Shown here piece after piece: positions 5,135-41,749 of a DNA stretch of 47,509 bases. The position numbers and the translations under genes are program-made. The stretch comes from a virus. Position 1 is the first letter of the stretch; each line of letters starts with the position of its first letter. Under the pieces are notes generated by a model. The model was not told the DNA's origin. It did no database searches and was given only the letters and a program-made list of their open reading frames with translations. The stretch lies in the IMG/VR virus record IMGVR_UViG_3300042387_002469, positions 1 through 47,509 of that record. The stretch is one strand, 5' to 3'.

Positions 5135-7075
<1,941 letters not shown>

Positions 7076-37720: not shown

Positions 37721-38070
37721 TGGTAAATGTAGGAAACCTATTAATAGGTATGTTTTTTGGATTTTTGGCTCAAGTGGCAACATTTTACCAATTACAAGGT
37801 CCACTTAAGTTTGAATGGTTCAAAAATCACTATTGGTTAACAGTATTAATGGGTATTCCTATTTCAATGTTATTCATGTATTCAGTGAAAAACATGGTTA
37901 TAGCATTTGATGGTCAAATGTGGCCGTCACGTTTAATTGGATTTTCAATTGGTGCAATTGTATTTAGTTGGTTGAGTTGGGCTATATTTAATGAGCCAAT
38001 AACAATGAAAACATTTATTTGTTTGATGTTAGCGCTTGCAATTCTATTAGTTCAACTTTTTGTAAAATAA
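37720..38070 (+). CDS. Four-span membrane protein, SMR/DMT-like layout
   Basis: A 116-aa protein with hydrophobic segments near 6-24, 39-58, 71-90 and 97-115, the layout of small multidrug-resistance-type proteins. The loop KFEWFKNHYWLTV and PSRLIGFSIG are notable. Transport is not shown. Confidence 0.68.
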   Translation: MVNVGNLLIGMFFGFLAQVATFYQLQGPLKFEWFKNHYWLTVLMGIPISMLFMYSVKNMVIAFDGQMWPSRLIGFSIGAIVFSWLSWAIFNEPITMKTFICLMLALAILLVQLFVK

Positions 38071-38072
38071 AA

Positions 38073-38102
38073 TTTGGAGAAGTAAAAAAGTTTTCGTATA
38101 TT
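38073..38102 (+). promoter_or_regulatory. Early-type phage promoter
   Basis: TTTG (38073-38076), 20 bp, then TATATT within TTTCGTATATT, then AAAG and TATAAA. All three elements are present. Confidence 0.85.
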
Positions 38103-38140
38103 AAAGTATAAACAAAGAAATAAATTAAAAAAAGAAAGTT

Positions 38141-38950
38141 ATGTTAGATTTAAGCCAAGACAGTTTTTTGACATTAGACGAAGTTAAGCAACGTGCTAAG
38201 TCAATTTTTACAGCAACAGCCGCTCCAACGGTTTCAGACAAATTTACTCACATTCCAACCAATCGAGTGATTGAAGATATGGAGCAACTAGGATGGGGTG
38301 TTGTTGATGCCAAAGAGGTAAAAGCCCGCAAAGAGGGAACAAAAGGATTCCAAAAACACTTAGTTGTATTCCGCAATCCAGATGTAGTAATTAATGGTGC
38401 TGATGGCGACACAGTATTTCCACAAATCCTATTAACAAATTCAAATGATGGTAAAAATGCATTTACGTTTACAGCAGGCCTATTCCGTATGGTATGTGAG
38501 AATGGTTTGGTTATTTCAACTGAGCAATTCAATGATGTAAAAATGCGTCACATGGGCTACACATTTGAGGAATTGCAAGCTCAAATTCGTGAAATGGTTG
38601 AGCAGTTGCCTTTGACAGTTGAGTCAATGAACAAAATGAAACAAATCCAATTGAACGAAGAGCAAGCTCAAGCGTTAGCTAAAAAAGCATTGACAACTCG
38701 TTTCACAGAAGAACAAGTTGAAAATATTCAAATCGATTTAGATCAATTACTTGAGCCAACACGTGATGAAGATAAAGGTACTGATTTATGGACTGTATTC
38801 AACGTGATTCAAGAAAAAATATTAAATGGTGATTTCAATTACATTTCAGGTGTTAAACAACGTAAAGCACGTAAAGTAAAAAACTTTAAACAAGACATGG
38901 AAATCAACCAAAAATTATTTGCAATGGCAGCTGAATTTGTAGCTGCCTAA
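38141..38950 (+). CDS. DUF932-type phage/plasmid protein
   Basis: A 269-aa protein whose core, FTFTAGLFRMVCENGLVIS near 108-126, and the later helical repeat with LAKKALTTRFTEEQ fit the DUF932 family of phage and plasmid proteins. No catalytic residues known. It is the longest gene in the early block; starts AAAGTTATG. Confidence 0.7.
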   Translation: MLDLSQDSFLTLDEVKQRAKSIFTATAAPTVSDKFTHIPTNRVIEDMEQLGWGVVDAKEVKARKEGTKGFQKHLVVFRNPDVVINGADGDTVFPQILLTNSNDGKNAFTFTAGLFRMVCENGLVISTEQFNDVKMRHMGYTFEELQAQIREMVEQLPLTVESMNKMKQIQLNEEQAQALAKKALTTRFTEEQVENIQIDLDQLLEPTRDEDKGTDLWTVFNVIQEKILNGDFNYISGVKQRKARKVKNFKQDMEINQKLFAMAAEFVAA

Positions 38951-38959
38951 GCAAAATAT

Positions 38960-39078
38960 AGTCAGGTGGCGGAATTGGTAGACGCTATGAGTAGAACACA
39001 GCCTAGTCCCGATTTGCGTTGGATATACAGGTTAATCAAAAAGTGTGTTCATAACAGGTTCGAATCCTGTCCTGACTA
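38960..39078 (+). tRNA. tRNA-Leu-like gene with enlarged central arm (119 nt)
   Basis: Acceptor AGTCAGG / CCTGACT, a textbook tRNA-Leu D-arm GGCGGAATTGGTAGACGC, and T-arm ACAGG / CCTGT around TTCGAAT are intact. The region between (38986-39053, 68 nt) is too long for an anticodon arm plus variable arm, and no normal 5+7 anticodon hairpin is seen. Instead TATGA (38986) can pair with TCATA (39049), ACACA with TGTGT, and GCCT with AGGT, forming one extended arm. An insertion, a tRNA remnant or a tRNA mimic are all possible. No group I intron core. Confidence 0.55.
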
Positions 39079-39108: not shown

Positions 39109-39140
39109 CCCGTCTCACAGCAATGTGGGACGGGTTTTTT
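39109..39140 (+). terminator. Rho-independent terminator
   Basis: Stem CCCGTCTCACA / TGTGGGACGGG (one G-T pair) with GCAA loop and six T, closing the tRNA-Leu-like unit. Confidence 0.93.
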
Positions 39141-39168
39141 AACAAAGGAATAGGTTTAGTAAAAGAAA

Positions 39169-39179
39169 TTTCGTATATT
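39169..39179 (+). promoter_or_regulatory. Early-type phage promoter
   Basis: TTTCGTATATT, 11 bp before the ATG at 39191. Confidence 0.78.
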
Positions 39180-39190
39180 GAAAATAAACA

Positions 39191-39463
39191 ATGAGAAAAC
39201 CACTACCAGTAATAGAAGCATTTGGACGAAACAAGATTACTCCACGTTATGACAATATGTGGGATATGAAGAAAATGGTTGGTCGCACATTGCGATGTAA
39301 TATGTTTCCAACGTTTCTAGGTAGATTGCTTTACACACACAATGAACGTTGTTATTTTGTTATGGTTGAAAACCCTGACTTTACAAAGTACAATCATTGT
39401 GCAGGTCAAGTAGAGTGGTTAAATGAATATACTGTAGCAACAATGGATTTTGAAGAAGAATAA
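39191..39463 (+). CDS. Small protein of unknown function
   Basis: A 90-aa protein (FGRNKITPRYDNMWDMKKMVG, then CYFVMVENPDFTKYNHC). Ends immediately before the next ATG. Confidence 0.68.
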   Translation: MRKPLPVIEAFGRNKITPRYDNMWDMKKMVGRTLRCNMFPTFLGRLLYTHNERCYFVMVENPDFTKYNHCAGQVEWLNEYTVATMDFEEE

Positions 39464-40342: not shown

Positions 40343-40627
40343 ATGAAAGAAAAAGCATTTGAAACAATAGTAGATAAAGAATATGGTAGGGATGGATTCC
40401 AAATGACATTTGCTAATGGTTGTACCATTAGTGTTATATTTGGAAAATATACTTACAGTGATAATGGAGAAACAACAGCTGAAGTTGCTGCTTGGCATTC
40501 AAATGGAAATTGGATGTACCATCAAGAAGGTGATTGGATTGAAATTCGAAACAGTTCAGATGTAATGCCTCGCAGAACAGCAGATGAAGTTGCAAAATTA
40601 ATTTACACATTAAGTCAATATAAGTAA
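40343..40627 (+). CDS. Small protein of unknown function
   Basis: A 94-aa beta-rich protein (FQMTFANGCTISVIFGKYTYS, EVAAWHSNGNWMYHQ). Starts AAGGTTATG. Confidence 0.7.
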   Translation: MKEKAFETIVDKEYGRDGFQMTFANGCTISVIFGKYTYSDNGETTAEVAAWHSNGNWMYHQEGDWIEIRNSSDVMPRRTADEVAKLIYTLSQYK

Positions 40628-40650
40628 AGGAATAAAAGATATAAAATAGA

Positions 40651-40661
40651 TTTCGTATATT
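40651..40661 (+). promoter_or_regulatory. Early-type phage promoter
   Basis: TTTCGTATATT then GAGGA and TATAAAAAAG. Confidence 0.8.
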
Positions 40662-40682
40662 GAGGATATAAAAAAGAAAGTT

Positions 40683-41414
40683 ATGGAAGGAAAACAATTA
40701 GATTTATTTGAAGGTATGTTGTTAACAGCCGATCAACAAGAAAAAGTTAATACATACATTGAAAATTGTAAGAAAAATTCAGAGTTTATTCAAAAACAGC
40801 ACATCAACATTGTAGGATTGTTGCTTATGAATGGTTTTTGTAAGGATGTTCATTTTGAAGAAAGTTGCAAAACAACTATTGAAACACGTACTGTAAGATT
40901 AGGTTATACCTATAACAAAACCGATTTTGAAACAGAAGTTACTGCTGAATATAGCCAATCAGATATTCGATTGCTAGGAAAAAGTTTTGATTCATATAAA
41001 GGTGAACTTAAATCATCCAAGTTCTATTTTGATGTTGAACGTGATAAAATTCGATGCGGTTCAATTACAGAGCAATATCGTTACGTTAAACCAAGAACAT
41101 TACTTGAAAAACTCAAACAACACAATGAAAATGCTGTGTATCGATTTGAAGAAGATCAAAAGCTAGTTAATTTAGAAAAAAATACAATCGAAAAATATTC
41201 AAAACTATATCCAAATGCTACAGTAATAGCTAAAGATGATTGGAGTAAATATAGTGGTTCATATCGAGTAATAGAAGTTAAGTTTAAATCAGATAGTTAT
41301 ATTCAGTTTAAGTTAGATGCTTACAACCTTAAAGAATATCTATACAAGAAATATGACGCTACATTTGAAAAACTTACAACAGAGGAATTGTTAGATAGAT
41401 TCTCAAAACAGTAA
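40683..41414 (+). CDS. Protein of unknown function
   Basis: A 243-aa protein, largest of the unknowns in this block. It begins EGKQLDLFEG, has a beta-rich centre (KTTIETRTVRLGYTYNKTDF) and a helical end with EKYSKLYPNATVIAKDDWSK. No family recognised. Followed by a terminator-promoter. Confidence 0.72.
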   Translation: MEGKQLDLFEGMLLTADQQEKVNTYIENCKKNSEFIQKQHINIVGLLLMNGFCKDVHFEESCKTTIETRTVRLGYTYNKTDFETEVTAEYSQSDIRLLGKSFDSYKGELKSSKFYFDVERDKIRCGSITEQYRYVKPRTLLEKLKQHNENAVYRFEEDQKLVNLEKNTIEKYSKLYPNATVIAKDDWSKYSGSYRVIEVKFKSDSYIQFKLDAYNLKEYLYKKYDATFEKLTTEELLDRFSKQ

Positions 41415-41420
41415 AAAAGG

Positions 41421-41451
41421 AAGCCCTCAATTAAGAGGGCTTTCGTATATT
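41421..41451 (+). promoter_or_regulatory. Fused terminator-promoter cassette
   Basis: Hairpin AAGCCCTC / GAGGGCTT with loop AATTAA, whose T-run is the first part of TTTCGTATATT (41441-41451). Termination and initiation signals share bases. Confidence 0.8.
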
Positions 41452-41470
41452 TCAAGTAAGAAAAAAGGTT

Positions 41471-41749
41471 ATGAAAGAAACATTAGTAGAAAAATTAGTT
41501 AAGCATTACAGAACAAGCGGTTGTGACAGATATGGCCAATTAAATACCATATCAGCAAGGCAAATAGCTAAAACTGATGAGGAAATGGAAGTATTGAATG
41601 AAATAGTAAAGATAAACTTGGTAGGTTATCAATACGGTACATATGAAGGTATATTTCCATGGGGTTCGTTTAAGGATAGTAATGTAGAACAGATGTGTAA
41701 GGAAGCATTTGCTCAAAACCCATCAAGAAATAATGGTAATCATTGGTAA
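41471..41749 (+). CDS. Small protein of unknown function
   Basis: A 92-aa protein (VEKLVKHYRTSGCDRYGQLN, GYQYGTYEGIFPWGSFKDSN). The next ORF follows 11 bp downstream in the AAAGGTTATG context. Confidence 0.65.
   Translation: MKETLVEKLVKHYRTSGCDRYGQLNTISARQIAKTDEEMEVLNEIVKINLVGYQYGTYEGIFPWGSFKDSNVEQMCKEAFAQNPSRNNGNHW

Follow-up and report, generated by a model that had tools for sequence, protein, structure and literature searches.

The window analysed here, a 47.5 kb IMG/VR virus record (47,509 nucleotides) whose phage genes include a DNA polymerase and a phage GroEL, encodes at positions 38960–39078 an RNA with the ends of a tRNA-Leu and without an anticodon hairpin. This RNA is probably a phage RNA without a decoding role, in which a tRNA scaffold carries an exchangeable structured payload; the payload is likely to be the effector, possibly acting on a host factor. 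It combines the paired acceptor stem, T-arm, uncallable anticodon arm and structured interior that characterize a wider tRNA-scaffolded class, relatives of which occur in Bacteroidota.

Organization of the RNA Gene

The features of the element and its surroundings are listed below.

38960..39078, + strand: whole tRNA-ended RNA gene, 119 nt, CCA absent from the DNA (sequence, Rfam tRNA model)
38960..38966, + strand: acceptor stem 5′ strand AGTCAGG, 7/7 pairs with 39071–39077; covaries to AGCGCAG/CTGCGCT in locus L286
38969..38985, + strand: D-arm GCG-GAATTGGTAGA-CGC, tRNA-Leu type (sequence, Rfam tRNA model)
38986..39053, + strand: structured core (payload) standing in for the anticodon and variable arms; L286 and L296 have a core that is nearly the same
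38994..39000, + strand: core helix P1 5′ strand GAACACA, partner TGTGTTC at 39044–39050; one A-C mismatch in L296
39001..39004, + strand: core helix P2 5′ strand GCCT, partner AGGT at 39029–39032
39006..39009, + strand: core helix P3 5′ strand GTCC, partner GGAT at 39021–39024
39011..39014, + strand: proposed pseudoknot strand GATT, putative partner AATC at 39034–39037, followed by AAAAA at 39038–39042
39054..39070, + strand: T-arm ACAGG-TTCGAAT-CCTGT (sequence, Rfam tRNA model)
39071..39078, + strand: acceptor 3′ strand CCTGACT and discriminator A73 (sequence, Rfam tRNA model)
39109..39140, + strand: intrinsic terminator, 11-pair stem (39109–39134) followed by T6
38141..38950, + strand: upstream gene, DUF932 (phrog_12094), stop codon 9 nt before the RNA

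The tRNA-Leu-like ends and intact D-stem of the preliminary description are borne out: a 7/7 acceptor is followed by U8, a GCG/CGC D-stem closing a Leu-type loop that contains GG, a 5/5 T-stem and A73. The D-arm and T-arm are separated by 68 nt of non-tRNA sequence. The Rfam tRNA model scores 35.0 bits at 38960–39078 (gathering score 29) and leaves the anticodon arm unaligned; a scan of the whole window with default filters missed the element. ARAGORN, proposed as a check, called only Thr and Met tRNAs in the window. By both tools a 5-bp anticodon arm with a 7-nt loop is absent, in agreement with the claim that an extended arm replaces the anticodon hairpin. The terminator assigned to the element is likewise present and strong. 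Because the RNA begins 9 nt past the DUF932 stop codon, it is probably the co-transcribed tail of the DUF932 transcript rather than a separately promoted unit. A repeated intergenic element of ~40–60 nt carrying TTTCGTATATT was noted in the window at 38058–38140, 39138–39199, 40621–40690 and 41439–41480; it is probably a phage promoter family.

The three pairings previously assigned to a single arm (TATGA/TCATA, ACACA/TGTGT and GCCT/AGGT) are all found. The best core helix, GAACACA/TGTGTTC, takes up bases that TATGA/TCATA would also need, and therefore at most TAT/ATA can stack outside it. A possible model of the core comprises GAACACA/TGTGTTC, GCCT/AGGT, GTCC/GGAT and a potential GATT/AATC pseudoknot before AAAAA. 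The isolated fold of the window RNA is only mildly better than that of shuffled sequences (z −1.7 for the whole RNA, −1.3 for the core alone and −2.1 for the best crossing helices), so the case for this element rests on comparison and not on energy.

A Recurrent Core on Two Acceptors

Pattern scans identified the window core, nearly unchanged, in L286, where it is carried by a fully paired acceptor of different sequence (AGCGCAG/CTGCGCT). L286 is a 65 kb contig, and the 8.8 kb fetched from it encode no protein with detectable similarity to the window. A further copy lies at 47547–47664 of G001 (L296), from a close relative and the same contig as L006, in which the slot homologous to that of the window, 6.2 kb from the core copy, holds an RNA of another family (F-C; see below). 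This core family consists of three near-identical members, with covariation confined to the scaffold part; GATT/AATC is identical in all three copies (window, L286 and G001/L296) and gives no covariation signal either way.

The occurrence of one core in three contigs on two acceptors excludes an assembly error, which the preliminary description had allowed for, and speaks for selection acting on the core as a unit. Taken as a whole, an origin of the element by decay, chimerism or misassembly of a tRNA gene is hardly credible. It draws on the normal tRNA-Leu that occupies the same slot in distant relatives (see below); against it stand the perfect stems, the compensatory acceptor changes in many phages, the presence of the class in contigs from many metagenomes, and the independent recurrence of the core, which contradicts it directly.

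The Slot Downstream of the DUF932 Gene

Eighty IMG/VR loci with a DUF932 gene were surveyed for the segment that follows it. Where this gene is 71–99% identical to that of the window, a tRNA-ended RNA with a wholly different interior occupies the slot in nearly every case. In L002 and L003 (99 and 97% identity in the DUF932 gene) this RNA is 80 nt long and belongs to another family, L004 and L007 carry a third and a fourth family, L011 has two tRNA-ended RNAs in tandem, and L013–L015 and L017 have a 69–75 nt form with a hairpin loop lacking U33. The exchange shows in a Blast alignment of the window with L002, which runs at 96% identity up to 38961, leaves 38962–39048 unaligned and resumes at 39049 near the T-arm.

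A normal tRNA-Leu (anticodon TAA), which according to the preliminary description would have indicated a decayed gene or an assembly error, is found in the slot of nine distant relatives (L044, L048, L050, L059, L060, L065, L067, L071 and L075). These have ~62–65% identity in the neighbouring DUF932 gene, their acceptor and T stems differ from those of the window, and the tRNA-Leu(TAA) is usually the first of a tRNA cluster. Close relatives, by contrast, have non-canonical tRNA-ended RNAs almost throughout. Since they do, and since the window core survives in another phage, the normal tRNA-Leu of the slot was probably replaced rather than left to decay.

Several other elements were observed in or near the slot. 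ORFs at L020 3814–4563 and L021 3881–4519 resemble by eye GIY-YIG homing endonucleases, with no match of these slot ORFs in Pfam; by analogy with SegB near the T4 tRNAs, they could drive cassette exchange. In the stretch that separates the DUF932 gene from the tRNA-ended RNA, each of several relatives has one of at least three other kinds of RNA that look compact and structured, with long closing stems (L002 3812–3917; L006, L013, L014 and L015, with AGTAGATGACCATGAA...; L007, L009, L018, L019 and L022, with ATCGTCGCAAGTAGAACCGACGG...). None has an Rfam match at gathering score, and they are possibly ribozymes or more cargo RNAs. The non-canonical RNA at L011 4217–4338 has a second T-arm (GTGGTTCGAATCCAC) nested within its interior.

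Distribution and Diversity of the Class

A motif defined only by D-loop and T-loop letters (AATTGGTAGACRC, a gap of 55–85, GGTTCGAATCC; the acceptor ignored) matches at least 120 viral stretches in an IMG/VR scan, with at least 101 distinct interiors. A near-identical motif has 10 matches in 84,980 cellular genomes/species, some of which are ordinary tRNA-Leu genes with long variable arms (by reading; L210) or lie in prophages. The class is nearly restricted to viruses. One cellular match, L216 from Sphingobacterium (S. paludis), is in a prophage, as shown by the adjoining terminase and portal genes. Its tRNA-ended RNA (6471–6558), that of L215 from another Sphingobacterium genome and that of the viral L087 have a common payload family (GTTATAAGTTGAAACGC...AGTATCC) on differing acceptors.

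The scaffold is intact in most of the class. Among the 101 distinct interiors the acceptor is paired at 7/7 positions in 86 cases and the T stem at 5/5 in 93, and A is the discriminator in 77. Acceptors that differ from AGTCAGG occur in 44, in 34 versions; 37 of these 44 are fully paired, against 2.4 expected (maximum 8) when the 3′ strands are shuffled. Over all loci scanned, a set chosen by paired ends, which includes some scan artefacts, comprises 217 distinct tRNA-ended sequences that ARAGORN does not call; their interiors fall into 174 clusters, 144 of them with a single member. The diversity is also seen within a single phage: L300, a 41 kb contig, has 25 callable tRNAs, Leu(taa) and Leu(tag) among them, and ~11 non-canonical RNAs that alternate with small ORFs. 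The acceptor and T-arm of these ~11 RNAs are nearly the same, while their interiors differ except for one near-duplicate pair.

A near-match search of annotated phages with the window gave no match. BLAST of the whole element against phages returned only generic tRNA pieces, but through it candidates lacking annotation came to light in Leuconostoc and T5-like phages. By reading, RNAs of similar type, likewise unannotated, were recognized in a 735 kb phage, a Manatee Spring podovirus, the crAss-like phage cr4_1, a Leuconostoc phage and the T5-like phage HdH2. The last (L204 1408–1527) is a 120-nt tRNA-ended RNA (ATTCTAG...CTAGAAT) within a tRNA cluster. Leuconostoc phage phiLM33_01 (L202 ~1498–1605) has, directly before tRNA-Trp, a long-arm tRNA-Leu-like gene (TGACAGG...CCTGTCA) with a degenerate T-loop, and cr4_1 (L218 1440–1525) a tRNA-ended RNA (GTAAGTAG...CTTACTAC) in which a D-arm is not obvious.

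Structure and Covariation of the Interiors

Compared with dinucleotide shuffles made sequence by sequence, which take no account of kinship among payloads, the interiors fold better at a modest mean significance (mean z −0.81, s.e. 0.11) and have an excess of crossing helices (mean z −1.16, s.e. 0.16). Two families allow covariation to be followed, the shuffles in both being made irrespective of relatedness. Family F-A has 19 distinct members, every one in a tRNA scaffold. In the 18 that were aligned, 99.6% of cells are paired and covariation is 0.276 versus 0.118 in shuffled alignments (0/500). It features a covarying 4-bp stem, a GGG/CCC pairing and a TTATAG/CTATAA crossing helix, invariant and hence read from complementarity. 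The D-loops of six F-A members (L263, L270, L264, L267, L272 and L282) hold an extra insert, often a hairpin, so the scaffold appears to tolerate a second insertion site there. Family F-C has 28 distinct members, 21 of them aligned, with 12 pairs showing double changes and covariation of 0.330 versus 0.168 (0/500); a D-arm-like hairpin (GTGA, a loop with GG, TCAC) is kept behind an added covarying stem AATGC/GCATT, as a relocated D-arm. On this comparative evidence the structure of the interior appears to be selected.

The preliminary description had also raised splicing of the arm. A tRNA-Leu with a small intron or insert in its anticodon region, spliced to a normal tRNA, would account for the intact D- and T-arms and for the Leu-type D-arm. 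Excision of one stretch yields ARAGORN-callable tRNAs from 60/60 real interiors, but also from 59/60 shuffled ones, and the ~95 callable variants per real interior lie within the 89–113 of shuffled interiors. The D-arm of F-C is relocated, and L300 has canonical Leu tRNAs as well. An insert of ~70 nt is far below the size of a group I intron and bacteria are not known to have the archaeal bulge-helix-bulge splicing system. We regard the intron as very improbable.

A different reading gives weight to the scaffold only. The acceptor/T-arm unit would serve as punctuation of an operon or mRNA 3′ end, with RNase P and the 3′ tRNA nuclease cleaving there; alternatively it would be a sponge that titrates these two enzymes, LeuRS or EF-Tu. 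The interior would be mostly filler. The position of the element just past a gene and ahead of a terminator fits this, as do the small ORFs of L300 and the frequent A discriminator; LeuRS recognition is independent of the anticodon. Filler, however, would be expected to shrink or drift, whereas the interiors are structured, two families show covarying stems alongside motifs that do not vary, and a near-identical interior recurs in a dissimilar phage. A scaffold without a functional payload is an unlikely explanation.

Proposed Function

In the scaffold-and-payload reading that we favour, the acceptor stem, T-arm and D-loop elbow are retained as a constant scaffold, while a compact, probably pseudoknotted core replaces the anticodon and variable arms and passes between phages as a cassette. 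Without an anticodon the RNA cannot decode. It would be trimmed and protected by host enzymes (RNase P, the 3′ tRNA nuclease and the CCA-adding enzyme), as their known substrate requirements suggest: the transcript would be cut at 38960 and at the 3′ end and then shielded by CCA. The 3′ nuclease and the CCA enzyme recognize the acceptor/T-arm domain; because an acceptor plus T-arm suffice for RNase P and the other enzymes read the same domain, the RNA should be cut and CCA-protected. The RNase P requirement is known from cleavage of model hairpin substrates (PMC11143913). Transcription, maturation and stability of the window RNA would follow from these considerations.

The payload is most likely an effector because it is structured, exchanged and conserved within families. 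We speculate that its binding partner is a host factor and that it could serve, for instance, as a decoy or inhibitor in the conflict between phage and host; antagonism of host factors would be the simplest reason for the fast turnover of payloads. Antisense pairing between the payload and the rest of the window gave nothing significant. Precedents are the RNA mimicry of phage PhiTE against ToxIN (PMC3475682) and the tRNA-based conflict involving Septu and T6 tRNA-Tyr with SegB (PMC13096335). The PhiTE case and the excess of crossing helices would also suit a more specific version, in which the payloads mimic ToxI-like pseudoknots, the RNA antitoxins of type III toxin-antitoxin systems. ToxN (PF13958) is above cut-off in 0/296 genomes of the phylum of G012, a Sphingobacterium genome, and no Rfam ToxI match was found in the window and 20 loci, a sample covering few payload families; such mimicry seems quite improbable.

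Relation to Known RNAs

The nearest documented possible relative is T4 species 1 RNA (rnaC), which like rnaD is a small stable RNA of a phage tRNA cluster without an assigned decoding role. The sequence of rnaC closes with a perfect T-arm (CCGGG-TTCGAAT-CCCGG) and a 3′ strand resembling that of an acceptor, but the sole 7-bp acceptor partner found lies ~45–50 nt inside the annotated 139-nt RNA and not at its 5′ end. The resemblance to the window element is limited to T-arm and acceptor logic, no common core having been seen, and a scan of rnaD revealed no such T-arm. RnaC and the unannotated T5-like RNA may be distant members of the class.

The likeness to tmRNA proposed in the preliminary description holds in form only. 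Both have a tRNA-like end domain and a long arm at the anticodon-arm position, but the window element is only 119 nt long, has a complete D-stem where the D-arm of tmRNA is degenerate and stemless, and has no reading frame; moreover, a real, separate tmRNA adjoins a tRNA-ended RNA in L040. A tmRNA identity was rejected, with no tmRNA called by ARAGORN and the Rfam scans giving no tmRNA hit, either at gathering score or with E values up to 5.

Class II tRNA-Leu shares with the element its D-arm (GGCGGAATTGGTAGACGC), T-arm and A73, and in F-A the arms can be interpreted as a larger anticodon arm that forms a knot with a long variable arm. The window element differs in lacking an anticodon arm, in escaping ARAGORN and in its 68-nt interior, that of E. 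coli tRNA-Leu being about 36 nt. Engineered tRNA scaffolds for recombinant RNA are reportedly the work of Ponchon and Dardel. In this method (noted in PMC3753655) the insert is likewise placed at the anticodon arm for processing and stability, but such scaffolds are man-made, whereas the phage class is diverse and occurs naturally in viruses. The tRNA-like structures at the 3′ ends of plant viruses also represent viral tRNA mimicry and are RNase P substrates (PMC11143913); they are the 3′ ends of RNA genomes, unlike the separate DNA-phage genes of this class. Theta ribozymes (PMC10879173) are structured RNAs associated with phage tRNA genes, as self-cleaving modules beside normal tRNAs and not within them.

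Searches of Rfam 15 with the window and 20 loci gave generic tRNA and no other family above gathering score, and no description of the class was found in the open-access papers to which the literature search extended. A large class of phage RNAs that keep tRNA ends and have a rapidly exchanged structured core in place of the decoding arm apparently went unrecorded. Tentatively, Bacteroidota phages, and probably those of other hosts, may possess a horizontally exchanged, virus-specific repertoire of structured effector RNAs that share one tRNA scaffold. Such a repertoire would be the RNA counterpart of anti-defence gene islands, with the RNAs of T4 and T5 tRNA clusters as distant members.

If this reading is correct, a large class of viral non-coding RNAs was overlooked by annotators because tRNA finders skip such RNAs or file them as undetermined tRNAs. 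It could explain the decades-old stable RNAs of phage tRNA clusters that lack a known function, and would provide many natural cases in which a tRNA scaffold bears RNA cargo. The payloads would be structured RNA effectors whose host targets are open to discovery by pull-down and defence assays.
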